Positions 46,986-61,936 of a DNA stretch of 64,000 nt are shown here, piece by piece; positions within the stretch are counted from its first letter, which is position 1, and every line of letters starts with the position of its first letter. The notes beneath the pieces are model-generated. The model was not told the DNA's origin. It was given only the letters and a program-made list of their open reading frames with translations, and did no database searches. Both the position numbers and the translations under genes were made by a program. Origin of the DNA: Burkholderiales bacterium 67-32 (GTDB taxonomy: Bacteria; Pseudomonadota; Gammaproteobacteria; Burkholderiales; Burkholderiaceae_B); NCBI GenBank assembly GCA_001898625.1, contig MKUP01000012.1:372001-436000 (forward strand), written 5' to 3'.

Positions 46986-47786
46986 TCAATGGGATGGTGA
47001 ATAGTTGAGCAGGCGCGACAGCTCGTCGGCGGTGCCGCGCACCCGGCCGATCAGCTCGGACACGCGCGATTGCTCGACGCGCGACGACGGCAGGGCGGCG
47101 CCCAATGCCGCGACCACGCGGCCGGTATGGTCGCGCACCGGCGTGGCGATGCTGGTGATGCTGGGCTCGTAGAAGCCGGCGCCCATGGCATAGCCGTTGG
47201 TCCGGTCCTGCGCCAGCAGCCCGTGTAGCGCCGTCAGCGTGGACGGCGTGCTGGGCGAATAGACTTCCAGTTCCTCGTCGGGATAGAGCTCGCCCATTTC
47301 CCGGCGGTCCAGGTCGGTCAGCATCACGCGGCCGAGCACGGTGGCGTGCGCGGGCAGGCGTGTGCCCAGGTTGACCGCGCTGGGGAACAACGTGGGGGCC
47401 GAGACCTTCGCGACGTAGACGATGGAGCGGCCGTCGCGCACCACCAGATTGCAGGAATAGCCGATCTCGTCGCGCAGGCGCTGCAGCAGCGGCGATCCGA
47501 GTTCGGTCAGTTCGAGCGAGGCCAGGTATTCGAAGCCCAGGCTCAGCACGGCCATGCCCAGGCGGTAGCTGCGGCCGCCCTCGGCGCGTTCGATGAAGCC
47601 CAGCGCTTCCAGCGTGGTCAGCAGCCGGAACACCGTCGAGCGGGGCAGCCCCATCTTGCGCGCGAACTCGGGCGCCGACAGCGTACGGTTCTGGCGGCTG
47701 AAGTGGCTGAGCAGCCGCAGGCCGCGTTCCAGGCCCGGGACGATGTAGCGTTCGGGGATGTCTTCGCTGATGGCGGCGTCGTTCAT
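46986..47786 (-). CDS. IclR-family transcriptional regulator
   Basis: A 266-residue IclR regulator: winged HTH in SAPEFARKMGLPRSTVFRLL (residues ~38-57), then GAF-like effector domain with YSCNLVVRDGRSIVYVAKV and PAHATVLGRVML. The start ATG 47786 is two bases from the hydrolase stop. It lies inside the operon cupin-hydrolase-IclR-nadX, which it probably autoregulates. Confidence 0.92.
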   Translation of the reverse strand: MNDAAISEDIPERYIVPGLERGLRLLSHFSRQNRTLSAPEFARKMGLPRSTVFRLLTTLEALGFIERAEGGRSYRLGMAVLSLGFEYLASLELTELGSPLLQRLRDEIGYSCNLVVRDGRSIVYVAKVSAPTLFPSAVNLGTRLPAHATVLGRVMLTDLDRREMGELYPDEELEVYSPSTPSTLTALHGLLAQDRTNGYAMGAGFYEPSITSIATPVRDHTGRVVAALGAALPSSRVEQSRVSELIGRVRGTADELSRLLNYSPSH

Positions 47787-47788
47787 GG

Positions 47789-48682
47789 TCAACGGGGCGT
47801 GGCGCCGGTGGTGGCCGCGGCGTGCGCGCCTTCCAGAATGGCCGCGACCGCTTCGGGCCGCTCGATGTGGCAGGCGTGGCCGGCCACGGAGATGGAACCG
47901 TAGGGCGCGCCGAACATCTCGGCGATGGCGCGGCAGTTGGCCGGGATCGTAACGGTGTCCTGGTCGCCGGAATGGACCTCGACCGGCACGGGCGCCGGCG
48001 CGTAGCCGGCCATGTCGGCGTTGCACAGCATCTCGATCGCCTGGCGATAGCCGGCGGTATCCAGACGCTCCATGTTCCAGCGCACCCAGGCCAGGGCCTC
48101 AGCGCTGGGTTCGGACGACAGCATCTTGGCGGGGCGCGTGCGCGCCATGCCGGCGATGCCGACCTGCTCCAGCGTGCGCAGCCGCTCGGCGCGCACCGCC
48201 TCCTGCCGCTCGGCCAGCGCCGGATTGCCGTAGCCGCGGGTGGGGCTCAGTAGCACCAGGCGCGCGACCCGCTGTTTGCCCAGGTCATGCGCATAGGCCG
48301 TGGCCATCAGCGTGCCGAGCGAATGGCCGACCAGCACGCAGCGTTCGATGCCCAGCGCATCGAGCATCTGGTGCAGCCGCTGTGCGTAGTCCCCGGCGCC
48401 CGGCGAGGCTGGCGCCAGCCGCGCCGAATTGCCGTAGCCCGGCGCGTCCCAGGCGATCACACGCGCACGCGGGGCAAGCTTCACGGCCGCATGCAGCCAC
48501 GAGCCCGCACCCGAGCCGATGCCATGCAACAGCACGATGGCCGTGCCGTCCGCGCCCGGCGTGCCCGCCTCGCGATAACACTGCACGCCCCCGGCCGTTT
48601 GCACCGACTTCTCGGCAAAACGGCTATTGAGCAACTCCAGCGTTTCCGGCGACGGTTCCGGCGCCAACGTATCGGTCTGCAT
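47789..48682 (-). CDS. Alpha/beta hydrolase (meta-cleavage-product-hydrolase-like)
   Basis: A 297-residue hydrolase: oxyanion loop LLHGIGSGAGSW, WDAPGYGNS, nucleophile elbow VGHSLGT, acid in HSGDQDTVTIP and His in GHACHIERP. The Gly-Ile-Gly-Ser-Gly loop and GNS motif resemble C-C bond hydrolases of ring-cleavage pathways and haloalkane/epoxide relatives. Start at ATG 48682. It is followed within two bases by iclR. Substrate not known. Confidence 0.83.
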   Translation of the reverse strand: MQTDTLAPEPSPETLELLNSRFAEKSVQTAGGVQCYREAGTPGADGTAIVLLHGIGSGAGSWLHAAVKLAPRARVIAWDAPGYGNSARLAPASPGAGDYAQRLHQMLDALGIERCVLVGHSLGTLMATAYAHDLGKQRVARLVLLSPTRGYGNPALAERQEAVRAERLRTLEQVGIAGMARTRPAKMLSSEPSAEALAWVRWNMERLDTAGYRQAIEMLCNADMAGYAPAPVPVEVHSGDQDTVTIPANCRAIAEMFGAPYGSISVAGHACHIERPEAVAAILEGAHAAATTGATPR

Positions 48683-48832
48683 CGTCCTGTAGTCCTTCTT
48701 GCGCTCGCGAACCCTTCGGCCACGAACGCGAAAGCGCGGCATTGTATCCGTGTGTCGTGCCACCCTGCGGGAGCACGTCCGCAGAAGGCAAAAAAGCGGC
48801 AAGCACGCCGCCCCTCGCCAGCCTGTTGTTAC

Positions 48833-48907
48833 CCCAGGGCACAGCGGATCCGGCTTTGCCGGTCCGCCAGTGCCGCCCCTGGGGGCGCGCGTAAGCGCGT
48901 AGGGGGG
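48833..48907 (+). repeat. 75-bp intergenic palindromic repeat, copy B
   Basis: Same sequence as copy A apart from a few substitutions and small indels in the GC-rich right half; the same outer and inner stems are kept. Lies between the cupin stop (6 bases away) and the hydrolase promoter region. As in copy A, it follows the 3' end of a minus-strand gene in the same orientation. Confidence 0.8.
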
Positions 48908-48913
48908 GACCTA

Positions 48914-49450
48914 TTACCTCTTGATCTTAGCCAGCGGGTGCTCGGGCGGGTAGGTCGGGGTGATGGGCTTCTTGGCGCCCAGCATCACACACATCAGGGC
49001 ATCTTCGTCGCCGACGTTGATTTCCTCGCGGTACACGCCCGGGGGCACCGACACCAGGTCGCGGTCGGTCAGGATGGTCTCGAAGCGCTCGCCGTCTTTT
49101 TCCAGGACCAGCTTGAGCTTGCCGCGGATGACGAAGAAGATTTCCTCGACGTCGGTATGCAGGTGCGGGGGGCCTTCGTGGCCGGCCGGGATCACCATGG
49201 TCGAGAACGTGAAGTGCTCGGAAGGCACGGTGTTCGAGTCGGCGGCGACGCCGGTGCCGCCCGTGCCGACGTAGCGCATTTGCGCGCGGCCGTACTTGGG
49301 ATCGAAGTCGGCCTGGAACTTCAGGGCGTCCCAGTCGTACTTGCGGGTCGAGAACCGCGCGACGCGCGAGTTCATCCAGGTCTCGAAGTCAGCGCCTTCG
49401 GGGCGGTCCCAGCTGCGGGCGACTTGCTGTTGTTCGGACATATCCGTCAT
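48914..49450 (-). CDS. Single-domain cupin protein
   Basis: A 178-residue cupin. The metal-binding segment GPPHLHTDVEEIFFVIRGKL gives two His and a Glu, and GV-Y-R-E-E-I-N in the second motif replaces the usual His with Tyr/Arg, so the metal site may be incomplete. The start at 49450 is chosen for AGGAG-TACACC; 49465 is in frame but has no ribosome site. It is probably first in a set with hydrolase, iclR and nadX, though the repeat element and a 150-bp gap could separate it. Function unknown; perhaps an isomerase or a ring-cleavage enzyme. Confidence 0.82.
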   Translation of the reverse strand: MTDMSEQQQVARSWDRPEGADFETWMNSRVARFSTRKYDWDALKFQADFDPKYGRAQMRYVGTGGTGVAADSNTVPSEHFTFSTMVIPAGHEGPPHLHTDVEEIFFVIRGKLKLVLEKDGERFETILTDRDLVSVPPGVYREEINVGDEDALMCVMLGAKKPITPTYPPEHPLAKIKR

Positions 49451-49825
49451 GGTGTACTCCTGCATGGGCGGCTAGGCGCCGCGAGAGCGGGTGAAGGCGG
49501 GCCCGGAAGGCGCCCGCCGTGGTGTGTTCGCTGTCACTGCTGCGCGTTTTATATTTAAAACGCGGATTTAATAGTGAAACAAGCCTAAATATACGCCCTA
49601 TTGGTGAAATCGTCACTAGGGTAAACACCAGGCCGCCATTACCGAGTACAATCGCAATCTGCGCCTGGCTCCAATCCGGGCGTGCATCCGGCCAGGCGCC
49701 GCGCGCCATGTCTTCCGGGCTCCACCCGGACAGCCGTTTTCCGGCCGGCCTACCCCCAGTTACCACATACGTCAGCCTCGATTGGAGTCACTCAGCTTGA
49801 GCGACGGGCCGTCGCTGGAGTTGTC
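49451..49825. other. Divergent AT-rich intergenic region (cupin / rhlE)
   Basis: 375 bp with no gene. The part from 49540 to 49625 is strikingly AT-rich for this genome and contains the perfect inverted repeat at 49543-49564 and a small GTGA/TCAC pair (49604-49616). It should hold the promoters of both the cupin operon and the helicase, whose start lies 200 bp beyond the AT-rich part. A long leader for the helicase is possible. Confidence 0.5.
49543..49564. promoter_or_regulatory. 22-bp perfect inverted repeat, operator candidate
   Basis: Arms CGCGTTTTA (49543-49551) and TAAAACGCG (49556-49564) around TATT. It lies 93 bp before the cupin start and overlaps an AT-rich -10-like region on the minus strand with a TTGTTT -35-like hexamer ~18 bp upstream. 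The IclR protein encoded in that operon is the obvious candidate ligand. Confidence 0.5.
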
Positions 49826-51414: not shown

Positions 51415-51443
51415 TTGACGCCGGATAGCTACGCTCGTACACT
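51415..51443 (+). promoter_or_regulatory. Sigma-70 promoter of the monooxygenase gene
   Basis: TTGACG (51415-51420), a 17-base spacer and TACACT (51438-51443). The operator at 51446-51472 begins three bases after the -10 box and covers the predicted start of transcription. Confidence 0.7.
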
Positions 51444-51445
51444 AT

Positions 51446-51472
51446 TTGCGAAACTTAGTTTCGCAATGCGAA
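51446..51472 (+). promoter_or_regulatory. Operator, copy 1 of the pyridine-cluster regulon
   Basis: Palindrome TTGCGAAAC-TTA-GTTTCGCAA (51446-51466) extended by TGCGAA to 51472. It matches the operator at 57558-57584 in 26 of 27 positions when read on the strand of the operon that each one controls. It is placed over the transcription start, so repression is likely. The binder is probably the IclR at 57647. Confidence 0.8.
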
Positions 51473-51522
51473 CTTAACGTATCCGGCCATCACCTCATGT
51501 CCTACAGCGAGAGACAGCACGT

Positions 51523-52788
51523 ATGAAAGCGCCACACGACCAACCGCGCATCCTGATCGCCGGCGCGGGCATAGGAGGGCTGACGACGGCCCTGGCTCTC
51601 AGGAAACTGGGTTTTCGCCACATCGAGGTGCTGGAACAGACGGCGGTCCTGAAGGAAGTCGGCGCGGGCATCCAGCTCGGGCCCAATGCCGTGAAGGTCC
51701 TGCACGACCTGGGCATCGCCCCGGCGCTGGAAGCCGTGGCGGTGGCGCCGCTGGCCACCCGGTCGCGCGACTGGGCCAGCGGCCGCACCATCCGCGATTT
51801 CCCGCTCGGCCCGGAGTGCGCGCAGCGCTACGGCGCGCCCTACTACCACGTGCATCGCGCCGATCTGCACAATGCCCTGATCGACGCCTACGGGCGCGAG
51901 AACGTGCGGCTGGCGCAGCGCGTCAAGACGTATGCGCAGGACGCGGCGGGCGTGCGCGTGATCCTGGAGTCGGGCGAGACCGTGGAAGGCGACGTGCTGG
52001 TCGGGGCCGACGGCGTGCATTCGGTCGTGCGCGGCCAGTTGCTGGAAGGACAGGATCCGCGCTTTACCGGACTGCTCGCCTGGCGGGGCATGGCGGATGC
52101 GGACCGTGCCGGCCACCTGGGCATCGAGAAGAATGTCAACGCCTGGTGGGGACCGCACCGGCACTTCGTGAACTACTACGTGTCGGCGGGCCGGCGCATC
52201 AACTGGATCGGCATCGTGCCCGCGGGTCAGTGGCGGCTCGAATCGTGGTCGGCGCGCGGCGACAAGGCCGAGGTGCTGAAGGAGTTCGATGGTTGGCACC
52301 CCATCGTGCGCGGCCTGATCGAGGCCACCGACGACGTGTTCAAGTGGGCGCTGTACGACCGCGATCCCTGGCCTGTGTGGACCCGCGGCCGAGTGACGCT
52401 GCTGGGCGACGCGGCCCATCCCATGGTGCCCTTCCTGTCGCAGGGCGGTTCGCAAAGCATCGAGGACGGCCATGTGCTGGCGCTGTGCCTGGCCGGGCTG
52501 CCGCACGATCCGGCCGCCGCGCTCAAGACCTACGAGGAGCTGCGCACCGCCCGCACGGCGCGCGTGCAGCTGGGCTCGCGCGAGGCGGGCCGAATGTTCC
52601 ACCAGACCGATCCGCTGAAGAAATTCATGCGCAACATGAAGTTCCGCTGGGCTGCGCTGACCAACAGCCAGGAGAAATGGCGCCGGGTCGACTGGCTGTA
52701 CAGCTACGACTGCCGGACAGCCGTGGCCGAGAAGCTTGGCGCCGTGCCCGCTAGCGCGCCAGTTCCCACCGCCGATAGCATCGCCTGA
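51523..52788 (+). CDS. FAD-dependent aromatic monooxygenase (3-hydroxybenzoate 6-hydroxylase/NicC-like)
   Basis: A 421-residue single-component flavoprotein hydroxylase. ADP-binding GAGIGGLTTALALRKLG follows strand 1, the DG motif GADGVHS is near residue 160, and GRVTLLGDAAHPMVP near 295 binds the FAD ribityl chain. It resembles 3-hydroxybenzoate 6-hydroxylase and salicylate hydroxylase most by eye. Because it shares an operator with a NicX-like dioxygenase operon, a hydroxypyridine or hydroxypyridine-carboxylate substrate is also plausible. Its last 38 bases overlap antiparallel with the P-loop gene. Confidence 0.88.
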   Translation: MKAPHDQPRILIAGAGIGGLTTALALRKLGFRHIEVLEQTAVLKEVGAGIQLGPNAVKVLHDLGIAPALEAVAVAPLATRSRDWASGRTIRDFPLGPECAQRYGAPYYHVHRADLHNALIDAYGRENVRLAQRVKTYAQDAAGVRVILESGETVEGDVLVGADGVHSVVRGQLLEGQDPRFTGLLAWRGMADADRAGHLGIEKNVNAWWGPHRHFVNYYVSAGRRINWIGIVPAGQWRLESWSARGDKAEVLKEFDGWHPIVRGLIEATDDVFKWALYDRDPWPVWTRGRVTLLGDAAHPMVPFLSQGGSQSIEDGHVLALCLAGLPHDPAAALKTYEELRTARTARVQLGSREAGRMFHQTDPLKKFMRNMKFRWAALTNSQEKWRRVDWLYSYDCRTAVAEKLGAVPASAPVPTADSIA

Positions 52789-53278
52789 TCGCCGCCGCCG
52801 ACGGCAGAACCACCTTGGGCAGGTCGAGCCCCTCGACCATCTCCGCATAGAGCCGGCGGTTGCGCGGCGTGACCACGGCGATATGGTGGATCATCGCCCA
52901 CTTGACGCTGTCGCGGCCACCGTCCAGCGCGCCGCGCCGGTCGCGCTCGAACCAGGTCCGGCGCAGGTAGCGCAACAGGCTCAGCGGCGTGGAGATGTCC
53001 AGCAGGATCACGCCGGTCGCGCGCCGCAAGCGCTGCGGCATGCAGCTGGAATAGTTGCCATCCATGACCCAGCGCCCGCCCGCGATGGCTGCATCGTGCA
53101 GGGCGGCGAATTCGTCCGCGGGGCGGGGTTCCCAGTCGGTATGGGGCAGGTGGTATAGCCGGTCGAGGTGGACCGGCTCCAGGGCGCATTTGCGGGCGAT
53201 CGCCCCGGCCAGCGTGGACTTCCCGCTGTTGGAGGGCCCGACGATGCAGATGCGCGGCCCCAGGCTCGCAAGCTTCAT
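52751..53278 (-). CDS. P-loop NTPase/kinase (adenylate-kinase-like, FlaR/topology-modulation type)
   Basis: A 175-residue nucleotide-binding protein. Walker A is GPSNSGKS (residues ~15-22), LDRLYHLPHTDW is a substrate-recognition loop common to this family, and WVMDGNY is the Walker-B-like strand. ATG 53278 was chosen as it puts the P-loop at the normal distance; the frame upstream is open to 53419 over the amidase 3' end. Last gene of the leftward operon, 70 bases after the amidase stop. A direct catabolic role is not evident. Confidence 0.83.
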   Translation of the reverse strand: MKLASLGPRICIVGPSNSGKSTLAGAIARKCALEPVHLDRLYHLPHTDWEPRPADEFAALHDAAIAGGRWVMDGNYSSCMPQRLRRATGVILLDISTPLSLLRYLRRTWFERDRRGALDGGRDSVKWAMIHHIAVVTPRNRRLYAEMVEGLDLPKVVLPSAAAIRRCYRRWELAR

Positions 53279-53348
53279 GAAAAAGGTGTCCTTCACATCC
53301 AGGCACCTTTTTATTCGATGGCGCTCGCCTTGCCCAGTCCGGCGGGGA

Positions 53349-54746
53349 TCAGATCGGCGGGCGCGCCTCGAATCCCAGTACCGCCTCCAGCGCGTGCGCC
53401 GCTTGCAATACCTGGGCATCGTGGCCGCGCGGCGCGGCGATGTGCAGGCCCATGGGCAGGCCGCCGGCGGCCAGTCCCATCGGGATGCTGATGGCGGGCT
53501 GCTGCGTCAGGTTGAACAGCGAGGTGTAGGGCGTCCAGGCCCGCCGGTTGGGAAATTCCTCGAATTCCTTCGGATAGCTCAGGTTCGCGTCGAAGGCGGG
53601 GGCCGCGACCGTGGGCGTCAGCAGAAGGTCGAAGCGCTGGTGGAAGGCGTGAAGACGCCGCGCCAGGTCCTGGCAACGCGCCTGGGCACCCATGTAGTCC
53701 TCCAGCGCCAGGCCGGCGCCGTCCTCCAGGATGCCGGCCATGACGGGCGACAGCAGCGCGCGCCGTTCCGCCGGCATGTGTTGCAGCGCGTACCGGTATC
53801 CCGCCTGCAGCAGGACCAGGTAGTCGTCGATGGGATTGTCGATGTCCGGATCGGCTTCTTCGACGATGGCGCCCAGGTCGGCCAGACGCTTTCCCATCTC
53901 CCGGAAGGCCTCGGCGATCCCGGCATCCACCTTGGGGGCGTAGCCCAGCGTCAGGCTGAGGGCGACGCGCTTGCCGCGCAGGCCTTGTCCGAGATCGGCC
54001 CCGAGGCTGTCGGGCCGCCAGGGCAGCGACATGGCGTCGCGCGGATCGGGGCGGGCGATGATGTCCAGCACCGTGGCGGTGTCCCGCACGTTGCGGGCCA
54101 GCGGGCCGACGCAGGACAGGCCGCCGGCCACGTTGGGCGGATACATGGGCACCAGGCCGCCGGTGGCCTTGAAGCCCACCACGCCGGTCAGGGCCGCGGG
54201 AATGCGCAGCGATCCACCGGCGTCCGAACCCAGCGCGAAGGGGCAGAAGCCGGCCGACACCGAGGCCGCGCCGCCGCCCGAGGACCCGCCGGCCTGCTTG
54301 GTGGTGTCCCAAGGGTTGGTGGTGGCGCCGGTGAGCGGGCTGATGGTGACGGGGCCCGCGCCCAGTTCCGGCATGGTGGTCAGGCCCAGCAGCACCGCGC
54401 CGCCTTCCTGGCAGCGCAGCACTGCGGGCGCGGTGTCCGCCACGGGATCGGCGGGCATCGCGCGCGAGCCGCGCCTGTGGGGCAGGCCGGCCACCATCAG
54501 GTTGTCCTTGGCGGTGAAGGGGGCTCCGTCCAGCGGCCCGAGCGGCGCGCCGCGCAGCCATCGCGCCTCGCTGGCCCGCGCCGCCGCGCGGGCGCGGTCC
54601 TCGTCCAGGATCGTGAACGCGTTGATGCGTTCGTTCAGCGCGGCGATGCGGGCAAGCTGCGATTCGAGCGCCTCGACCGGGGAGATCTCCTTGCGTTCGA
54701 AGGCGTGGGCGAGCTGCGTGAGGGAAAGGAACGGCAAGTCTGACAT
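53349..54746 (-). CDS. Amidase-signature family hydrolase in the NicX-like operon
   Basis: A 465-residue amidase. The catalytic triad is Lys80 (FTAKDN), cis-Ser155/156 in AGGSSGGG and nucleophile Ser179 in SDAGGSLRIPA. It is 33 bases downstream of the NicX-like gene. In the known nicotinate pathway N-formylmaleamate and maleamate are hydrolysed by an alpha/beta hydrolase (NicD) and an isochorismatase-type amidohydrolase (NicF), neither of which is here, so this amidase could take one of those steps or release the ring compound from an amide. Inference only. Confidence 0.9.
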   Translation of the reverse strand: MSDLPFLSLTQLAHAFERKEISPVEALESQLARIAALNERINAFTILDEDRARAAARASEARWLRGAPLGPLDGAPFTAKDNLMVAGLPHRRGSRAMPADPVADTAPAVLRCQEGGAVLLGLTTMPELGAGPVTISPLTGATTNPWDTTKQAGGSSGGGAASVSAGFCPFALGSDAGGSLRIPAALTGVVGFKATGGLVPMYPPNVAGGLSCVGPLARNVRDTATVLDIIARPDPRDAMSLPWRPDSLGADLGQGLRGKRVALSLTLGYAPKVDAGIAEAFREMGKRLADLGAIVEEADPDIDNPIDDYLVLLQAGYRYALQHMPAERRALLSPVMAGILEDGAGLALEDYMGAQARCQDLARRLHAFHQRFDLLLTPTVAAPAFDANLSYPKEFEEFPNRRAWTPYTSLFNLTQQPAISIPMGLAAGGLPMGLHIAAPRGHDAQVLQAAHALEAVLGFEARPPI

Positions 54747-54779
54747 GCTGGGGGGAATCCTGGGTTGATCGATGGCGCG

Positions 54780-55832
54780 TTACTGCGGCTGTGCGCCGTC
54801 GACGCGCTGGTCGGGGGCCACGACGTCGCCGTCCACGACCATGGGTTGGCCGTCCACGTGGAACGAGCATTTGCGCATGGGGATGTCCAGATGCGCCTTG
54901 GTGCGGCGGCTGCCGCCGGGGCCGGTGGAGAACAGGAAGTTGCCGTAGAACGACCGCGCTTCCATGCCTATGGTGGCGGCCTTGTCGTACAGGCCGAGCG
55001 AGGTCCAGCGGGCCTTGGGCTGCAGGCCCCAGCCCAGGTGCGACACCGCATAGGCGTCGGGGTCGTCGAAGCCGCGCAGGTAGGCATCCAGGAACTCGGC
55101 ATCGAGTCCGCCCGAGATGCGTACGATGGCGCCGCGTTCGACCTCCAGGGTGATGGGCGTCTGCACGTAGTTCTTGAACGGCAGGATGATGTCGCCGGGC
55201 GCCAGCACGACCACGCCTTCGGCCGTGCCGTCGTCGGGCAGGCGGGCGACGAAGCCGCTGGGCCAGTGGTCCCAGCGGCCGGGGCTGTCCACGTAGCCGT
55301 ATTCCGCGGTGATGGGATAGGCGCCGATGGAGGCCGTGAGCCGGGTGCCCGCGGCGGAGGTGACGGTGATGCGGTGCCCTTGCGCGTAGGCGTCGCGCGC
55401 GGCCAGCACACGGCGCCGGTCGTCCGCCGACGGCATGACGCGCGCGAGGACTTCCGGGGGCTCGTAGGCCAGCAGCATGCGGGTGCCGGACTCCAGCACC
55501 GCGCGCTGGCCCGGCGTGAACAGCAGGAACACGGTGTCGATGACCAGGTCGGCCGCCTTCATCGCGGCCAGCGCCATGGGGTCGTCGTCGATGGGCGAGG
55601 CGCCGCTGACCACGGTGGGATCGGTACCCACTTCGCAGGTATCCCAGTTGGGCGCGATGTCCAGCTTGACCACCCGCGCCTGCAGCGCGGCGGCGGCCCG
55701 GGCGGCGGCATCGACCACGCGCGGGTCGGAGTTCTGCGAGGTCAGGATCAGCACGTTCTCGCCGGGGGCCAGCTTCGAGAGCTGCAGGACTTCCGTCCAG
55801 CAGCGGGTCAGTTGCGAGGGACTCAGGGGCAT
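54780..55832 (-). CDS. nicX: 2,5-dihydroxypyridine 5,6-dioxygenase-like (NicX family, M29-related)
   Basis: A 350-residue protein of the NicX/M29-aminopeptidase-like fold. The metal triad that I recall for Pseudomonas NicX (His265, His318, Asp320) is matched by His265 in SHLGWGLQP and His314/Asp316 in AHLDIP. Long stretches such as LAYEPPEVLARVMPS, TAEYGYVDSPGRWDHWPSGF and GDIILPFKNY also follow NicX. NicX opens 2,5-dihydroxypyridine to N-formylmaleamate with Fe(II) and O2. ATG 55832, 25 bases after the flavin reductase stop. A related dihydroxypyridine or a dipeptide substrate cannot be excluded. Confidence 0.82.
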   Translation of the reverse strand: MPLSPSQLTRCWTEVLQLSKLAPGENVLILTSQNSDPRVVDAAARAAAALQARVVKLDIAPNWDTCEVGTDPTVVSGASPIDDDPMALAAMKAADLVIDTVFLLFTPGQRAVLESGTRMLLAYEPPEVLARVMPSADDRRRVLAARDAYAQGHRITVTSAAGTRLTASIGAYPITAEYGYVDSPGRWDHWPSGFVARLPDDGTAEGVVVLAPGDIILPFKNYVQTPITLEVERGAIVRISGGLDAEFLDAYLRGFDDPDAYAVSHLGWGLQPKARWTSLGLYDKAATIGMEARSFYGNFLFSTGPGGSRRTKAHLDIPMRKCSFHVDGQPMVVDGDVVAPDQRVDGAQPQ

Positions 55833-55857
55833 GGGGCCTCCGGGATGCCGGGCGCGG

Positions 55858-56496
55858 TCATGGCCGCTGCCCGAAGCGATTGAACGAATCGTGTTCCAGG
55901 CTGAAGGCATCCCCCAGCCGGCAGTAGTTCCGGCCGGCCAGCCGTCCCACGCCACGCAGCGCGGCCATGTCGATGCGGCCTTCCGCGCCGACCACGTCGG
56001 AATCCACGTGGATGGCGACGACCTCGCCCAGGACCAGCGTATAGCTGCTTCGCGGCAGCGGCAGGGCCTGCGCCAGCCTGCATTCGAACCAGGCCTTGGA
56101 CTCGGCCACGCAGGGCGGACGCACCAGCGAGGCGGGAGCGGGCGTCAGGCCCGATGCCTGGAACTCGTCCACGCCGGGAGGGTGCGCCTGGGCGCAGGCG
56201 TCCTGCTGCCGCGCGATGGCTTCGCCCACCAGGTTGACCACGAACTCGCCGGTGGCCAGGACATTGTTCAGCGTGTCCTTGGGGCGGTCAACGGCGTGGC
56301 GGCCGATGGACACGCACAGGTAGGGCGGATCGGTCGATACGGCATTGAACCAGCTGAACGGAGCGAGGTTGGCCTGCCCGTCGCGGTCGATCGTGGACAC
56401 CAGCGCGATGGGTCGGGGCACCACCAGCCCGGCCACCAGCTTGTACAGGCGCGCCGGGTCGGTCTGGTCGGGAAGGTAGCGGATCTTGGTGGTCAC
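55858..56496 (-). CDS. Flavin reductase (DIM6/NTAB-like) domain protein
   Basis: A 212-residue split-barrel flavin reductase. LVVPRPIALVSTIDRDGQAN, APFSWFNAVSTDPP and DTLNNVLATGEFVVN are typical of FMN-binding members. It starts with GTG at 56496, overlapping the Bug stop by four bases. It could provide reduced flavin for an oxygenase outside this operon, as the monooxygenase at 51523 uses NAD(P)H itself. The open frame that continues to 57609 lies antiphase in the Bug gene and is not real. Confidence 0.88.
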   Translation of the reverse strand: MTTKIRYLPDQTDPARLYKLVAGLVVPRPIALVSTIDRDGQANLAPFSWFNAVSTDPPYLCVSIGRHAVDRPKDTLNNVLATGEFVVNLVGEAIARQQDACAQAHPPGVDEFQASGLTPAPASLVRPPCVAESKAWFECRLAQALPLPRSSYTLVLGEVVAIHVDSDVVGAEGRIDMAALRGVGRLAGRNYCRLGDAFSLEHDSFNRFGQRP

Positions 56497-57467
56497 TCGG
56501 GACGGATGTTGGCTTCGCGGATGACGGTCTTGAAGGTGGTCAGCTCGTCGTGGATGAGCCTGGCCGATTCCGCCGGCGACGCATAGCGCGTGATGATGGA
56601 CTGGGCCAGCAGCGGTTCCTGCACCGCCTTGTCGGAGAAGACCTGCTTGAAGGCGCGGTCGAGCTTCTCGATGACGGGCGCGGGCGTGCCGGCGGGGGCC
56701 AGCGCGAACAGTTTGGCGCTGACGTCGTAGCCCTTCAGGCCGGCCTCGGTCGCGGTCGGCACATTGGGCAGCAGGCTGATGCGCTCGGGCGAGGCGACGG
56801 CCAGCGCGCGCAGCTTCTGGTTGCGGATGTGGGGCAGCGTGGCCGCCAGGCTTTCTATGCTCATGTTCACCTGGCCGCCCACCAGGTCGAGCAGCGACGG
56901 CGAGATGCCCTTGTAGGGAACGTGCAGCAGGTCGACGCCCGCGGCGCGCTTGAACATTTCCCCGGCCAGGTGCTGTACCGAGCCGTTGCCGCTGGAGGCG
57001 AAGGTCAGCGCGCCCGGCCTGGCCTTGGCCAGCGCGACGAGTTCCTGGACGGAGGTGGCCTTGACGCCGGGATTGACCACGATCACGAACGGAATGCTGC
57101 CGAATACCGAGACCGGCGTGAAGCTCTTCTCCAGGTCGAAGGGCGTGGAGCGTTCGTACAGCGAGGCATAGATCGCGTGGCTGGTCAGCGAACTCCACAG
57201 CAGCGTGTAGCCGTCGGGTTCGGCCTTGGCGACGGATTCCGCGCCTATGCTGCCGGTGGCGCCGGGCCGGTTGACCACGACCACCTGCTGGCCGAGCTGT
57301 TTGGCCAGCATGGGACCGGCCACGCGGGCGGCCGCGTCCACGCCGCCGCCCGGGGGCCAGGGCACGACCAGGGTGATGGGCCGCTCCGGCCATTCCGCGT
57401 GGGCCCCCAGGCTGGTCGCCAGCGCGATGGCCCCGATGGCGGTTTTCAAGACTGCTTTGACGTTCAT
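56493..57467 (-). CDS. Bug family periplasmic solute receptor 9
   Basis: A 324-residue receptor, first gene of the leftward operon. The signal peptide ends SLGAHAE (24 residues), with ITLVVPWPPGGGVDAAAR and EPDGYTLLWS as ligand loops and VPYKGISPSL. ATG 57467 has AAGGG 10 bases upstream. Its promoter (57596-57625) and operator (57558-57584) lie in the 179-bp gap to the divergent IclR. The ligand is likely the carboxylated ring compound degraded by the operon. Confidence 0.93.
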   Translation of the reverse strand: MNVKAVLKTAIGAIALATSLGAHAEWPERPITLVVPWPPGGGVDAAARVAGPMLAKQLGQQVVVVNRPGATGSIGAESVAKAEPDGYTLLWSSLTSHAIYASLYERSTPFDLEKSFTPVSVFGSIPFVIVVNPGVKATSVQELVALAKARPGALTFASSGNGSVQHLAGEMFKRAAGVDLLHVPYKGISPSLLDLVGGQVNMSIESLAATLPHIRNQKLRALAVASPERISLLPNVPTATEAGLKGYDVSAKLFALAPAGTPAPVIEKLDRAFKQVFSDKAVQEPLLAQSIITRYASPAESARLIHDELTTFKTVIREANIRPE

Positions 57468-57557
57468 GCTCGACCCTTGATGATGATGACGAAGCCCCGG
57501 CTCCCCTGCCGTGGGCGCTTGTGCAACCCGGGCCGTGCGGCCCAGTCTCCTTGGTGG

Positions 57558-57584
57558 TTCGCAATGCGAAACTAAGTTTCGCAA
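57558..57584 (-). promoter_or_regulatory. Operator, copy 2 of the pyridine-cluster regulon
   Basis: Contains TGCGAAAC-TAA-GTTTCGCA with a further TTCGCAA on the left. Read on the minus strand it differs from the copy at 51446 by one base in 27. It lies 11 bases downstream of the minus-strand -10 box, at the expected transcription start of the Bug-flavin reductase-NicX-amidase operon, and 63 bp before the IclR start. Confidence 0.8.
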
Positions 57585-57595
57585 ACTTTTGGGGT

Positions 57596-57625
57596 ATCCT
57601 ACCCAACAACTTTTGCGCGTGTCAA
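57596..57625 (-). promoter_or_regulatory. Sigma-70 promoter of the Bug-NicX operon
   Basis: On the minus strand TTGACA (57620-57625), 18-base spacer and TAGGAT (57596-57601). It fires towards the Bug gene over the operator. Confidence 0.7.
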
Positions 57626-57646
57626 CGAAGTTTGCGAGCAGGTCGG

Positions 57647-58480
57647 ATGAGAGGAACTTCCCAATCGAGGGCGATCAGCCCGGTGCCATTTGCCGAGCCG
57701 GATGCCGACGAGGATCCCGGCAGGCAATTCGTGACCGCGCTGGCCCGGGGGCTGAGCATCCTCAAGGCCTTCACTCAGGGTGACACGTCGCTGGGCAACC
57801 AGGAACTGGCCGAGCGCACGGGGCTGACCAAGCCCACGGTGTCGCGGCTGACCTATACCCTGACCCGCCTCGGCTACCTGGCCTGTTCGCCGCAGACCGG
57901 CCGCTACGAATTGGGTACGTCCGCGCTGGCGCTCGGGTACTGGGCGATGGCCGGGTCCTACATCCGGCAGGTCGCCACGCCGCTGATGGAGCGGGTCTCC
58001 GAAGAGCTGAACCTGTGCTGCGCCCTGGGCTACCGGGACGAGGCCGATGCCGTTTATCTCGAACACACGCGAGGTTCCGGCGCGCTCATCATGAGCGTGC
58101 AATCCGGCACGCGCACGCCCCTGGTGACGACCGCCATGGGCCGCGCGCTGATCGCGGTCATGGACCGGCCCGAGCGCGACAAGTTGTTCGCCGCCGAGAA
58201 GGTGCGCCACGGCGCGCAGTGGCCCAGGATCCTGAAGGGCATCCAGGAGGGCCTGAAGGACTACCAGGCGCGCGGCTTCACGCTGTCCCTGGGCGACTGG
58301 GAAAAGGAAATCAACGCCGTGGGCGTGCCGCTGGAGCTGAACGACGGCAATCCGCCTATGGCCCTGATCCTGGGCGGTTCCTCCTATGTGGTCGATCGCC
58401 AGCGCCTGGTCGAACACGTCGGCCCCCGGCTGGCCGAACTGGCCGGGCAGATACGCCACGGCCTGAGGTCGCGCGGCTGA
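57647..58480 (+). CDS. IclR-family transcriptional regulator of the pyridine-type cluster
   Basis: A 277-residue IclR protein: HTH in NQELAERTGLTKPTVSRLT (residues ~47-65), then an effector domain with LNLCCALGYRDEADAVYLEH and TPLVTTAMGRALIAV. The N-terminal ~25 residues are an acidic extension (AEPDADEDPG). The ATG at 57647 leaves the operator upstream; the open frame from 57521 would cover it. Divergent from the Bug-NicX operon. Both promoter/operator pairs point to it as repressor or inducer-responsive regulator of the cluster. Confidence 0.9.
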   Translation: MRGTSQSRAISPVPFAEPDADEDPGRQFVTALARGLSILKAFTQGDTSLGNQELAERTGLTKPTVSRLTYTLTRLGYLACSPQTGRYELGTSALALGYWAMAGSYIRQVATPLMERVSEELNLCCALGYRDEADAVYLEHTRGSGALIMSVQSGTRTPLVTTAMGRALIAVMDRPERDKLFAAEKVRHGAQWPRILKGIQEGLKDYQARGFTLSLGDWEKEINAVGVPLELNDGNPPMALILGGSSYVVDRQRLVEHVGPRLAELAGQIRHGLRSRG

Positions 58481-58596: not shown

Positions 58597-59700
58597 ATGC
58601 CGTCTGACCGCAATGCAATCGCCGCGCCGCCACTCGCGCAACCGGGCCGCAGGCGCGCGCTGAAGGGACTGGCGGGCTACGCCTCGCTGTGCGCCGGATG
58701 CCTGGCGCTGTCGGGCCGGGCCGGCGCCCAGGGCGCGGCCGCGCACCGCATCGATACGCATCACCACATCTTTCCGCCGGCCTACCTGGCGGCCGCGCGC
58801 GACGGCGTGGTGGATTCGTCGCCCGGCGCGCCCACGGACATGTTCGACAAATGGTCGCCGCGCAAGTCGCTGGACGACATGGACAAGCAGGGCGTGGCCA
58901 CGGCCATCGTATCGATCTCCACGCCGGGCGTATTCTTCGGCGACGTGGCGCAGGGCCGGCGCCTGGCGCGCGAGTGCAACGAATACGGCGCGAAGATGAT
59001 CGCCGATCATCCCGGCCGGTTCGGCATGTTCGCGGCCGTGCCTCTGCCCGACGTGGAAGGCAGCCTGCGCGAGATCGCCTACGCGCTGGACGAACTCAAG
59101 CTCAACGGCGTGGGCCTGCTGACCAGCTACGGCGATCGCTGGGCCGGCGATCCGGCGTTCTTCCCGGTGTTCGAGGAACTGAATCGGCGCAAGGCCACGG
59201 TCTACTTCCACCCCACGGCCGCCAACTGCTGCGGCAACCTGGTGCCCGAGACCAAGGTGTCGCTGGAGTATCCGACCGACACGGCGCGCTGCGCGGCCAG
59301 CCTCTACATCAACGGCGTGCTGTCGCGCTGCCCGGACATCCGCTTCATCCTGTCGCACGGCGGCGGGTCGCTGCCCAGCTTCGCCAGCCGCATCGATGCG
59401 CTGTTCGCCGGGTCGCCCACCGCGCCGCGCTGGCCGACCCGCGCCATGGACGAGTTCCGGCGCCTGCACTACGACACGGCCGCCATCCTGAATCCGCCCG
59501 CGATGGCGGCGCTACGCCAACTGGTGCCCGCCTCGCAGATCCTGATGGGTAGCGACTTCCCGTACCGCTCGGCAGGCCGCGCGGTCAAGGAGATCCGCGA
59601 TCTCGGCATGTTCACCGAGACCGAGCTCGAGGCGGTCGAACGCGGCAACGCGCTGCGCATCGTGCCCGGCCTGGCGACGGCCGGCCAGCGCGCCGGCTGA
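58597..59700 (+). CDS. Exported amidohydrolase family 2 (ACMSD-like)
   Basis: A 367-residue metal-dependent hydrolase or decarboxylase with an N-terminal export region: GRRRALKGLAGY followed by LCAGCLALSGRAGAQG, which is twin-arginine-like. The catalytic domain starts at ~49 with RIDTHHHIFPP (metal HxH); other ligands are VYFHPT, LSHGGGSLP and MGSDFPYRS (Asp). It is an extracytoplasmic relative of the protein at the left window end. Starts 116 bp after the IclR, in front of two more exported proteins. Substrate unknown; in picolinate degradation a related enzyme decarboxylates 3,6-dihydroxypicolinate. Confidence 0.88.
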   Translation: MPSDRNAIAAPPLAQPGRRRALKGLAGYASLCAGCLALSGRAGAQGAAAHRIDTHHHIFPPAYLAAARDGVVDSSPGAPTDMFDKWSPRKSLDDMDKQGVATAIVSISTPGVFFGDVAQGRRLARECNEYGAKMIADHPGRFGMFAAVPLPDVEGSLREIAYALDELKLNGVGLLTSYGDRWAGDPAFFPVFEELNRRKATVYFHPTAANCCGNLVPETKVSLEYPTDTARCAASLYINGVLSRCPDIRFILSHGGGSLPSFASRIDALFAGSPTAPRWPTRAMDEFRRLHYDTAAILNPPAMAALRQLVPASQILMGSDFPYRSAGRAVKEIRDLGMFTETELEAVERGNALRIVPGLATAGQRAG

Positions 59701-59763
59701 GGCTTCCCCGTTTCCGGCCCCGGGGGGCCGGGAACATCCTTCCCCATCTGTCAGGAGAGACTC

Positions 59764-60399
59764 ATGCAGCAAGCACCGAACGCGCCGCGGCGGCGCCAGC
59801 TTCTTACCGCCGGAGCGGGACTGGCGGCCGCGGTCGGCGCCGCCATGGGCAGCGCGCCGGCCCGCGCCGCGACGCCGCCTTCGCAGGCCGAGGCCCTGGA
59901 GCAACTGCTCGGCAAGCAGGCCATTTCCGAGGTGCTGTACCGCTATCCGCGCGGCCTGGATTTGCTGGACCGGGACATCCTGCTGTCGCTGGGCCACGCC
60001 AACGGCACCGTGCAGTTCGGCAAGATGCGCTTCGATCCCTGGGCCTCGTTCGTCGACTGGTTGCTCGAGGCGCACAAATCCATGCTATCCAACAACCATC
60101 GCATGACCAACATGCTGATCGAGGTGCGGGGCGACAAGGCGGTCAGCGAAACCACCGGCACCGCGACCCTGGTGGTCGCCGTCGAGAAAGATCGGATCGA
60201 GGAACGTTGGATGCACTCGCGTTATCTGGATCGCTGGTCGCGCCGCAACGGCAGATGGGCCATCGACTCGCGCCAGTCGGTCACGGATTTTCGGCGTATC
60301 GAGGTCTTCCCCGCCGCCGAGCTGAAGACCCGCTACAGCACGCTGGGGGATCGCCTGGGCAAGGACGATCCGTCATACAAGCTGTTCGATTTCCAATGA
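59764..60399 (+). CDS. Exported SnoaL-like (NTF2-fold) protein
   Basis: A 211-residue protein. The export signal APRRRQLLTAGAGLAAAVGA ends near APARAA (residue ~38), twin-arginine-like. The NTF2 fold follows: LLGKQAISEVLYRYPRGLDLLDRD is the helix pair typical of SnoaL-like dehydratases/isomerases, and HSRYLDRWSRRNGRWAIDSR the last strands. Substrate not known. Its stop overlaps the next gene (ATGA), and it follows the amidohydrolase by 63 bases, so the three are probably one operon. Confidence 0.82.
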   Translation: MQQAPNAPRRRQLLTAGAGLAAAVGAAMGSAPARAATPPSQAEALEQLLGKQAISEVLYRYPRGLDLLDRDILLSLGHANGTVQFGKMRFDPWASFVDWLLEAHKSMLSNNHRMTNMLIEVRGDKAVSETTGTATLVVAVEKDRIEERWMHSRYLDRWSRRNGRWAIDSRQSVTDFRRIEVFPAAELKTRYSTLGDRLGKDDPSYKLFDFQ

Positions 60400-60899
60400 G
60401 CGCGTCCATGAGCACTGTATCGAAGCGGGCGGCGGCGTGCGTATTGTCGCTGCTGGCCTGGGGGGCCGTGCAGGCGGCCGACCACATGCCGCAGGGCGAA
60501 CGCACGCAGGGCCGTTCGTACTCGCCCGCGGTCGTGACCGAAGGCGGGCGCATCGTCTGGCTGGCGGGCGAGACGGCCACCACCGACCTGCAGGGCCGCG
60601 ACATCAAGGGCGACTTCGAGGCGCAGGCGCGCACGGTGTTCGCGTTGATCGACCAGACCTTGAAGCGCGCGGGCGGGAGCCTGAAGGACGTCGCCACCAT
60701 GACGGTGTACATGACCGACGTACGCAACGGCGCCACCTTCGCCAAGGTGCGCAGCGAGATGTTTCCCGACCGCCGCTTTCCGGCCAGTGCGCAGATCACG
60801 GTCTCGGCGCTGGCGGTGCCGGGGATGCAGATCGAGATCCAGGCCGTGGCGGTGCTGGGCGACAGGTGCTCGCCGGCCTCGCCCTGCCTGCCGAAGTAG
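60396..60899 (+). CDS. Exported RidA-family protein
   Basis: A 167-residue RidA protein with a Sec signal (KRAAACVLSLLAWGAVQAAD), cleaved near residue 28. The RidA core is AVVTEGGRIVWLAGETATT, SLKDVATMTVYMTDVRNGA and RRFPASAQITVSAL. The position usually holding the substrate-binding Arg near the end of the core reads P-A-S-A-Q, so the classical imine-binding Arg may be absent. ATG 60396 overlaps the SnoaL-like stop; ATG 60408 is the other option. An extracytoplasmic RidA is unusual. Confidence 0.85.
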   Translation: MSASMSTVSKRAAACVLSLLAWGAVQAADHMPQGERTQGRSYSPAVVTEGGRIVWLAGETATTDLQGRDIKGDFEAQARTVFALIDQTLKRAGGSLKDVATMTVYMTDVRNGATFAKVRSEMFPDRRFPASAQITVSALAVPGMQIEIQAVAVLGDRCSPASPCLPK

Positions 60900-60910
60900 C
60901 CGGCGGGGCG

Positions 60911-60937
60911 CAGGCATCCGATAGAATCGGATGCCTG
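60911..60937. terminator. Strong hairpin after RidA gene (may also be an operator)
   Basis: 12-bp perfect arms CAGGCATCCGAT and ATCGGATGCCTG around AGA, followed by TCTTCTTG. It could end the exported-enzyme transcript. The centre contains a TAGAAT hexamer that could be a -10 box for the LysR gene at 60962, so a regulatory role is possible. Confidence 0.6.
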
Positions 60938-60961
60938 TCTTCTTGCCCGAGCGTTCCCGAC

Positions 60962-61936
60962 ATGCGTGCCAGGCCCCCCCGCCCTGTTTCCGATCCGCTT
61001 GAGCCCGGGAGCGGCCGGCCCCTGGATCTGCGGCGGATCAAGCTGCGGCACCTGGAGTGCATGCTCGAGGTCATGCGCACCCACAGCCTGCGCGAGGCGG
61101 CGCACGCGCTGCACGTGACGGAGTCGGCGGCGTCCAAGACGCTGCGCGAACTGGAGGCGGAACTGGGCGTGACGCTGTTTCAGCGGTCCAAGCTGGGCAC
61201 GGTACCGACCGAGGCGGGCGAGAAGTTCGCGCGCCATGCGGCGAGCGCGGTCGAGGCCCTGAGGTGGGGCGCGGCTTCCGCCCGCGGTCTGGCGCCGGCC
61301 GGCGCGGCGCTACGCATCGGTGCCATGCCGGTCGCGGCGGTGAGCCTGCTGCCGGCCGTCCTGCAACGCATGACCGGGCAGGTGCCCGGCCTGACGCTGG
61401 AGGTCGTGGCCGGCTCGAAGGCGATCCTGCTCAATCTGCTGCGCGAGGATGCCATCGATGCCGTGCTCGGCCGGCTGCCACCCGCGGACGACATGCAAGG
61501 CCTTTTCTTCGAACAATTGCTGCTGGACCGATACATCGCCGTGGTCCGTCCTGGCCATCCCCTGGCCGGACGCCAGGGGCTGAGGCTCGCGGACATCGTT
61601 TCCTATCCGCTGGTCCTGCCTCCGCCCGAGACCGTCACCTGGGCCGAGATCCAGCGGTTGTTCGTGTCGCAGGGCTTGCAGATGAATGAGACACGCATCG
61701 AGACGATCTATCTCGAGCTGAGCCGGGCCTGCACGCAGACGAGCGACGCCGTCTGGTTCGCGTCGACCCGGCACGTGAAGCTGGACATCGAGAATGGCCT
61801 GCTGGACCAGTTGTCGGTCGACTGCTCCATGCTGGAAGCGCCGCTGGGCATCATCGCCAGACAGGCCACGGGCCGGCATGCGCTCAGGGACCAGTTGCTG
61901 GAGATGATCCGCCAATACGTGCTCGATCCGTCTTGA
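60962..61936 (+). CDS. LysR-family transcriptional regulator (GbpR/PcaQ-like)
   Basis: A 324-residue LysR with a 20-residue Pro/Arg-rich N-terminal extension before RRIKLRHLECMLEVMRTHSL and the HTH ALHVTESAASKTLRELEAEL. FQRSKLGTVPTEAGE and a PBP-like effector domain follow. This looks like the PcaQ/GbpR branch. The start at 60962 was chosen; the frame upstream to 60437 is in the RidA gene. It may control the three exported enzymes or the Bug that follows. Confidence 0.9.
   Translation: MRARPPRPVSDPLEPGSGRPLDLRRIKLRHLECMLEVMRTHSLREAAHALHVTESAASKTLRELEAELGVTLFQRSKLGTVPTEAGEKFARHAASAVEALRWGAASARGLAPAGAALRIGAMPVAAVSLLPAVLQRMTGQVPGLTLEVVAGSKAILLNLLREDAIDAVLGRLPPADDMQGLFFEQLLLDRYIAVVRPGHPLAGRQGLRLADIVSYPLVLPPPETVTWAEIQRLFVSQGLQMNETRIETIYLELSRACTQTSDAVWFASTRHVKLDIENGLLDQLSVDCSMLEAPLGIIARQATGRHALRDQLLEMIRQYVLDPS

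Follow-up and report, generated by a model that had tools for sequence, protein, structure and literature searches.

A divergent NicX-type dioxygenase paired with an amidase-signature enzyme under a shared IclR-type operator in Pigmentiphaga

Overview of the gene cluster

A 64,000-nucleotide stretch of the genome of Burkholderiales bacterium 67-32 (contig MKUP01000012.1; G000:C12:372001-436000 in our numbering, hereafter the window) carries, at positions 51415-58480, a two-promoter gene set for pyridine ring opening with an IclR-type operator. The set comprises a flavin adenine dinucleotide (FAD)-dependent hydroxylase, a NicX-type dioxygenase of a divergent clade, an amidase-signature (AS) enzyme, a flavin reductase, a Bug receptor and an IclR-family regulator. 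The NicX and AS amidase genes are paired, and the locus contains no gene for the deformylase NicD. Judged from its sequence, the gene set appears to be a variant of the maleamate route, with the apparent replacement of one enzyme and a divergent NicX.

The gene content is best explained by an IclR-controlled regulon of the maleamate type for pyridine catabolism. The hydroxylase, of a class hereafter called type 2, would convert a hydroxypyridine-carboxylate into 2,5-dihydroxypyridine or a close analogue. The NicX-type dioxygenase would cleave the C5-C6 bond of the ring, giving an N-formylmaleamate, and the AS amidase, in the place of NicD, would strip the formyl group to give maleamate. Maleamate would be handled by NicF and maleate by NicE, which in this strain would be supplied from elsewhere in the genome. 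The IclR regulator, acting on both operators, would most likely repress both transcripts until the substrate or an intermediate is present. Taken as a whole, we give this explanation an even chance of being correct.

The cluster was found in six Pigmentiphaga genomes, among them P. kullae K24, Pigmentiphaga sp. NML030171 and P. humi dnA1. They are labelled G000 (the window's genome), G190, G191 (P. humi), G192, G196 and G197. The orthologous loci L032, L034 and L035 belong to G190, G197 and the main copy of P. humi, respectively, and L036 is a second copy in P. humi. An initial annotation, made from the letters of the window alone, had named the genes of the cluster; all of them were recovered in the present analysis with the same positions, strands and families.

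Identity of the ring-opening dioxygenase

The protein encoded at 54780-55832 matched no Pfam or NCBIfam model, and its identity was obtained from the solved structure of P. putida NicX. The match to NicX (PDB ID: 7cn3) had an E value of 1.2e-111 and covered residues 1-342 of 350, with 49-50% identity. The AlphaFold model of the protein was superposed on 7cn3 with a TM-score of 0.95 at 1.4 Å. The mean pLDDT of the model was 86.8, and the residue blocks 61-70 and 71-80 reached only 58 and 67. In P. putida NicX, the Fe ligands are H265, S302, H318 and D320, and the substrate residues are E177 and H189 (PMC7910607). All four ligands, as well as E177 and H189, are kept in the window protein. The initial annotation had spoken of all three metal ligands; the ligands are indeed retained, although P. 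putida NicX has four of them and not three.

M29 peptidases are distantly similar to this protein in fold (PepS, AmpS and AmpT gave TM-scores of 0.56-0.60 with the model). The protein could thus be taken for an M29-type aminopeptidase without a role in pyridine breakdown. The M29 model PF02073, however, found no match, either in this protein or in the rest of the window's genome, and the profile, PDB and model comparisons, together with the kept Fe ligands of NicX, rule out this identity; the chance that it is correct is practically nil. The assignment to the NicX type rather than to M29, for which the initial annotation had proposed this very comparison, is therefore sustained. By homology, fold and predicted catalytic residues, the protein is a NicX-type dioxygenase.

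Pairing of NicX with an AS amidase

In order to place the NicX-amidase pair among related loci, we surveyed 181 NicX loci, consisting of 80 loci, 100 places picked among the matches listed and 20 kb of the window. They were reduced to 175 unique NicX sequences, which cover relatives above ~330 bits and are dominated by Pseudomonas and Burkholderiales. The seeds for the labels NicD, NicE and NicF were checked against solved structures, and NicC was labelled by its place beside NicX in the nic locus of P. putida (L066). The NicD seed was taken from the P. putida nic cluster and matched PDB entry 4l0c ("Deformylase") with an E value of 7e-91.

In all seven loci of a single NicX clade, an AS amidase gene is found on the strand of NicX and less than 3 kb away from it. 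A NicD-type deformylase was found in 155 of the 175 loci at 90 bits or more, and in 151 of them at 200 bits or more; the loci below 200 bits were L044 and L176, which are cut by contig ends, and L170 and L190 (96 bits, doubtful). None of the seven clade loci contained NicD, compared with 155 of the 168 others (Fisher 9e-8, a value that is overstated because the seven loci form one NicX clade and represent about one event). The locus flanks were ~10 kb or less (~8 kb for L031-L036), so a missing NicD can be an effect of truncation. The initial annotation's statement that an AS amidase is present and NicD is absent holds for the locus.

The amidase matched PF01425 with 295 bits, and its catalytic triad is intact by motif positions, the first serine of GGSS being taken as the triad residue. 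Its scores against the NCBIfam models of AtzE and allophanate hydrolase, which belong to the same AS family, were 162-209 bits, significant and under the cut-off. The substrates of these two enzymes are imide-like. At an E value of 1e-110 or better, the amidase was matched in 6 of the 268 genomes of the family, each of them from the window's genus, and the only match among 398 phylum genomes was in the window's own. Among the best 15 of 1,496 plasmid records, the best match had 44% identity. The amidase is proposed for the deformylation because, once the NicE and NicF types in the operon of three relatives (see below) are counted, this is the only step from dihydroxypyridine to fumarate that has no gene, and the amidase is a hydrolase without a step.

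The second copy of the pair in P. humi (L036, G191:C22:250000-267000) is informative in this respect. The NicX-amidase pair persists in this locus, with identities of 73% for NicX and 58% for the amidase. The locus also contains several Bug receptors, a distant isochorismatase, a FAD hydroxylase of another type (N-N-Y-L-Y) and a molybdenum hydroxylase subunit. The pair is thus constant where the enzymes acting before it vary, and an action of the amidase on the product of NicX is the more economical assumption. If this is true, a non-homologous deformylase would represent a clean enzyme replacement in a well-known pathway.

Some other hydrolases at NicX loci were noted. An alpha/beta hydrolase encoded at 47789-48802, outside the cluster, was considered as a hidden NicD and rejected: the window's own protein did not match NicD at an E value of 1e-5, and the scores of its orthologues in L032, L033, L034, L051 and L052 with the NicD seed were 28-31 bits, compared with at least 200 bits in the 151 loci mentioned above. 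In four NicD-less loci (L137:8624-9643 on the minus strand, L037, L040 and L130), an alpha/beta hydrolase of PF00561, called MetX-like by eye, from family and neighbourhood, lies near NicX. It is possible that it is a second substitute for the deformylase, unrelated to the AS amidase. Nine of the 175 loci contained none of NicD, the AS amidase and the MetX-like hydrolase. Weaker AS amidases were found farther from NicX in L064 and L135, and L032 has a second AS amidase.

The positions of all features are summarized in Table 1.

Table 1. Features of the cluster in the window.
Feature	Position	Strand	Basis and remarks
Promoter of the FAD hydroxylase gene, sigma-70-like, TTGACG-17-TACACT	51415-51443	+	1 found; mean of shuffles 0.0
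IclR-type operator TGCGAAACTTAGTTTCGCA, with a third half site TGCGAAC just downstream	51447-51465	+	3 bp past the -10 box
FAD monooxygenase (aromatic/pyridine hydroxylase, type 2)	51523-52788	+	Family profiles, solved structures; Q47, V202, H211, V213, Y215 and F302 (NicC numbering)
Small P-loop NTPase (DNA topology modulation protein-like, scores below cut-offs)	52751 to ~53272	-	Family profiles
AS enzyme, triad K80-S155-S179	53349-54746	-	Family profiles; proposed deformylase of N-formylmaleamate or an analogue
NicX-type non-haem Fe(II) pyridine ring-opening dioxygenase, divergent clade, residues 306-309 including Glu308 deleted	54780-55832	-	PDB match to NicX
Junction of the deletion; site of the nicE-type and nicF-type genes in G190, G197 and G191	55847-55848		Genome alignment
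Flavin reductase	55858-56496	-	PF01613; PDB 3bpk, 4z85
Bug/TctC-type periplasmic solute receptor, leading gene of the operon	56493-57467	-	Family profiles
Operator, second copy	57565-57583	-	Lies 63 bp upstream of the start of the IclR gene and 12 bp past the -10 box of the Bug promoter
Promoter of the Bug-flavin reductase-NicX-amidase operon, sigma-70-like, TTGACA-18-TAGGAT	57596-57625	-	Score 10 of 12
IclR-family regulator, PcaR/PcaU/PobR-like, divergent from the operon	57647-58480	+	HTH_IclR and IclR_C domains

Divergence of the amidase-linked NicX clade

The seven amidase-linked NicX sequences formed one clade in a FastTree analysis of the 175 sequences (local support 100). Residues 306-309, including Glu308, are missing in all seven members and present in all 168 others. 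All seven members share a changed state at 17 columns in which one residue is at least 95% fixed among the other NicX sequences; the runner-up among 23 clade sets showed 6 such columns, at other positions. Fourteen of the 17 changed columns fall within 59-112 or 306-317, regions in which C76, L104-H105 and E308 are situated. Examples are Y75V, M101V, S106T, E108G, the loss of N306 and E308, and C317A. The window protein differs from P. putida NicX at H105 (F), C76 (S) and E308 (deleted). Position 76 is variable; C76 is replaced by S in six of the seven members, and C is retained in the main copy of P. humi. F105 is found in all seven members and in 105 of the 175 homologues (98 of the 168 outside the clade).

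In P. putida NicX, C76 lies in channel II, and H105 and E308 part the two channels (PMC7910607). The H105A variant is inactive, E308A has a similar Km and about half the activity, and C76A is still active (PMC7910607). Since F is common at position 105 among the homologues, F105 alone is no argument against activity. The changes in the clade need not mean a new substrate either, because E308A and C76A remain active. According to the same paper, no substrate of NicX beyond 2,5-dihydroxypyridine has been reported (PMC7910607).

These facts raise the alternative that the NicX-type enzyme opens a substituted dihydroxypyridine, for example a carboxylated, methylated or halogenated one. The AS amidase would then process the matching substituted N-formyl amide, on which NicD cannot act, and the cluster would serve a compound different from that of the other NicX loci of the genome. 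The extent of the fixed changes, most of them near C76, H105 and E308, would fit this alternative, as would the presence of at least three further NicX loci in the window's genome (five matches counted, with places given for four). The activity of the P. putida variants, however, indicates that the changes alone may not alter the substrate. Phe at position 105 is common, the residues E177 and H189 are retained, and the model, of low confidence at residues 61-80, gives no channel geometry. Moreover, the NicE and NicF types in the operon of the relatives (see below) are ordinary relatives of maleate isomerase and maleamidase, which fit unsubstituted maleamate. We regard a substituted substrate as a tentative possibility. 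The more specific combination, in which a NicX with a rebuilt entrance for a substituted dihydroxypyridine and an AS deformylase replacing NicD form a two-site IclR regulon confined, among the genomes searched, to Pigmentiphaga, seems doubtful. The specificity of NicX would be directly testable in this natural clade, in which the catalytic site is kept and neighbouring fixed residues are altered. As for the compounds handled by related strains, P. kullae H8 degrades a halogenated aromatic (PMC12016517), and the genus is named in papers on neonicotinoid breakdown.

Common control by a shared operator

A 19-bp palindrome with a third half site links the two transcripts. It matched twice in the window and not once in 100 shuffles. 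In the alignment of the six cluster-bearing genomes, TGCGAAACTTAGTTTCGCA followed by TGCGAAC was found upstream of both the hydroxylase gene and the Bug gene, the Bug-side copy of G197 having one substitution, and sequence corresponding to both promoters was visible. With up to one mismatch, the palindrome occurred exactly twice per genome, always in the cluster, in all six genomes; with up to two mismatches, it was absent from all five genus mates without the cluster. With three mismatches, one extra site each was found in G000, G191, G189 and G194, and the reversed control pattern gave 0-2 sites per genome. A second promoter-like site at 57457-57484 on the plus strand (9 of 12) was not used.

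The hydroxylase gene is convergent with the NicX operon; since both share the operator, it is nevertheless tied to it. For the IclR-family regulators PcaU, PobR and HmgR, a palindrome plus an external third box has been described (PMC8222616). The divergent IclR gene of the cluster (128.5 bits against TIGR02431, under the cut-off of 284.75) is the natural candidate for the binder of both operators. Each operator begins shortly after a -10 hexamer, at distances of 3 and 12 bp, which suggests repression rather than activation. The common control proposed in the initial annotation is borne out by the sites themselves, with the binder being predicted. Such a two-site regulon offers an inducer assay for finding the substrate.

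Deletion of nicE-type and nicF-type genes

In G190, G197 and P. humi (G191), two extra genes lie between the flavin reductase and NicX. One of them (P0006) is of the NicE type, with maleate cis-trans isomerase (PDB ID: 4fq7) as its best PDB match (E 1.2e-97). The other (P0005) is an isochorismatase-type hydrolase of PF00857 and of the NicF type, with 3ot4/3uao as the best PDB matches (E 1.7e-65); we take 3uao to be NicF of B. bronchiseptica. In the window, G192 and G196, both genes are gone with an identical junction 10 bp past the stop codon of the flavin reductase. One ancestral deletion of nicE-nicF is therefore the simplest explanation. In G190 and G197, both of which keep the nicE and nicF types, the flavin reductase has itself lost internal sequence, with a different junction in each genome. 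The initial annotation had noted that an alpha/beta deformylase and an isochorismatase-type amidase are absent; both are absent from the cluster in the window, although the absence of the latter reflects a deletion and does not make this enzyme foreign to the system.

Elsewhere in its genome, the window strain has two NicD-like genes, a single maleate isomerase at an E value of 1e-40 or better and ten matches of the isochorismatase type at 1e-20 or better. Since these genes are present, the pathway could be finished in trans.

The deletions could also be read as decay, the cluster being a remnant whose genes no longer form a useful pathway. Five of the six cluster-bearing genomes are affected, in about three events (nicE-nicF in three genomes and the flavin reductase in two). 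On the other hand, the hydroxylase, amidase and NicX retain 94-98% identity in L031-L034 and 76-84% in P. humi, the NicX and amidase reading frames are free of stops, both operators are kept in all six genomes, and candidates for the lost steps occur elsewhere in the genome. It is therefore very improbable that the cluster is merely a decaying remnant.

Assessment of the proposed deformylase role

AS amidases often act on amide xenobiotics. The AS amidase could accordingly be an entry enzyme, which converts a pyridine-carboxamide or another amide into the acid for the hydroxylase, with a NicD from another cluster performing the deformylation. Two NicD-like genes occur elsewhere in each of the six genomes, and the presence of a Bug receptor hints that a particular compound is taken up. 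In the second copy of P. humi, however, the amidase lies beside NicX even with a different hydroxylase and a molybdenum hydroxylase subunit nearby. Where NicD is on the same strand as NicX (91 of the 175 loci), the median stop-to-stop gap between them is 4 bp, equal to that of the amidase, which thus occupies a position frequently held by NicD. Furthermore, the operon of three relatives contains NicE and NicF, and none contains NicD. An entry role of the amidase thus appears unlikely.

Several points weigh against the assignment of the amidase to the NicD step and against the pathway as proposed. The exclusive occurrence of the amidase without NicD is about one evolutionary event and not seven. 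Thirteen other NicX loci contain neither NicD nor this amidase, so the absence of NicD alone is no proof of its replacement. A NicD could act in trans, since all six cluster genomes have two NicD-like genes elsewhere; one of those in G191 is only 44% identical. We know of no AS enzyme that acts on N-formylmaleamate. The flavin reductase is likewise without a pathway step. The second NicX-amidase locus of P. humi has no copy of the operator. In addition, the divergent NicX-type enzyme may not accept plain 2,5-dihydroxypyridine, and the internal deletions could be signs of decay.

In titles and abstract openings of the open-licence PMC literature, we noticed neither an AS-type N-formylmaleamate deformylase nor an IclR-controlled NicX cluster, which leaves their absence in print unproven. 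The initial annotation had suggested an undescribed pyridine route. What remains of this suggestion is a maleamate pathway in variant form, with the apparent exchange of one enzyme, a divergent NicX and perhaps another substrate; two of the reasons given for its novelty are weakened by the nicE/nicF deletion and by the precedent of the fungal hydroxylase HxnX described below.

The FAD hydroxylase

The nearest profile of the hydroxylase was 3-hydroxybenzoate 6-monooxygenase (NF006021, 310 bits, under the cut-off of 459), and the nearest solved structures were tropone 2-monooxygenase and then NicC. At NicC positions 47, 202, 211, 215 and 302, the window hydroxylase has Q, V, H, Y and F instead of the NicC set H-C-H-Y-H, in which we take H302 to be a further active-site residue. 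Among 130 unique FAD monooxygenases of the survey loci (more than 200 bits with either seed), 95 have the NicC set and 33, including the window's, have Q-x-H-Y-(F/Y/L). Possibly, 5-hydroxypicolinate 2-monooxygenase (HpaM), which was not found in the literature searched, is also a hydroxylase of this type 2. The active-site residues reported for NicC are H47, C202, H211 and Y215 (PMC9304392).

The window hydroxylase and its five orthologues have Q-V-H-V-Y at positions 47, 202, 211, 213 and 215. The same five residues are found at the aligned positions of HxnX of A. nidulans (PMC9304392). Deletion of HxnX blocks the use of 6-hydroxynicotinate, which is converted to 2,5-dihydroxypyridine, and does not block the use of 2,5-dihydroxypyridine (PMC9304392). 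Because of this precedent, a non-NicC hydroxylase is in itself no sign of a new substrate. The initial annotation was right that the enzyme is not of the NicC type as judged by these residues, but this does not rule out a nicotinate-type route.

Comparison with known pyridine pathways

The cluster shares the FAD hydroxylase and the NicX-type dioxygenase with the P. putida nic cluster (NicC-NicX-NicD-NicF-NicE, L066), and the NicF and NicE types with it in three relatives. In contrast to the nic cluster, the window locus has an AS amidase instead of NicD, a hydroxylase that is not NicC-type, a divergent NicX and an IclR regulator, where a MarR-type regulator (family assigned by eye) lies beside NicX in L066.

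With the pic cluster of Alcaligenes/Bordetella (PicC, PicD, PicE, PicF and PicG), it shares the logic of the lower pathway from 2,5-dihydroxypyridine to fumarate (PMC10142695). F105 of the window protein is also found in 35 of the 36 NicX sequences with a PicC-type neighbour, a label given by family and neighbourhood. Unlike the pic cluster, the window has no PicC-type gene near NicX; such a gene occurs in a separate locus of the genome (L038).

The nicotinate route of A. nidulans includes HxnN, a FAAH1-like amide hydrolase (PMC9304392). As FAAH belongs to the AS enzymes, HxnN offers a precedent for this family in pyridine breakdown. The substrate of HxnN is, however, alpha-hydroxyglutaramate and not an N-formyl amide (PMC9304392). 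The fungal route also differs in that the ring is opened without a NicX-type enzyme, and HxnX has V-L-L at positions 227-229, where the window hydroxylase has I-G-I (PMC9304392).

Other genes in and around the cluster

The small P-loop gene lies between the hydroxylase and the amidase in five of the six cluster-bearing genomes and had no match in the locus of P. humi. It is probably a passenger. Upstream of the cluster, an IclR regulator, an alpha/beta hydrolase and a cupin protein adjoin rhlE on the minus strand (46986-49465). The hydrolase, which is the one rejected as NicD above, and the cupin are conserved in five orthologous loci.

The downstream genes at 58597-61936 (secreted-looking Amidohydro_2, SnoaL-like, RidA-like and LysR) were considered as part of the system and rejected. 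No matches to them were found behind IclR in L034 and L035, and only the first is kept in L032. The palindrome, too, is confined within the window to the two cluster sites. The Amidohydro_2, SnoaL-like and RidA-like proteins, encoded at 58597-60899 and followed by LysR, have leader-like N-termini. The first of them (58597-59700) shares 28% identity with the PicC-type protein of L038.

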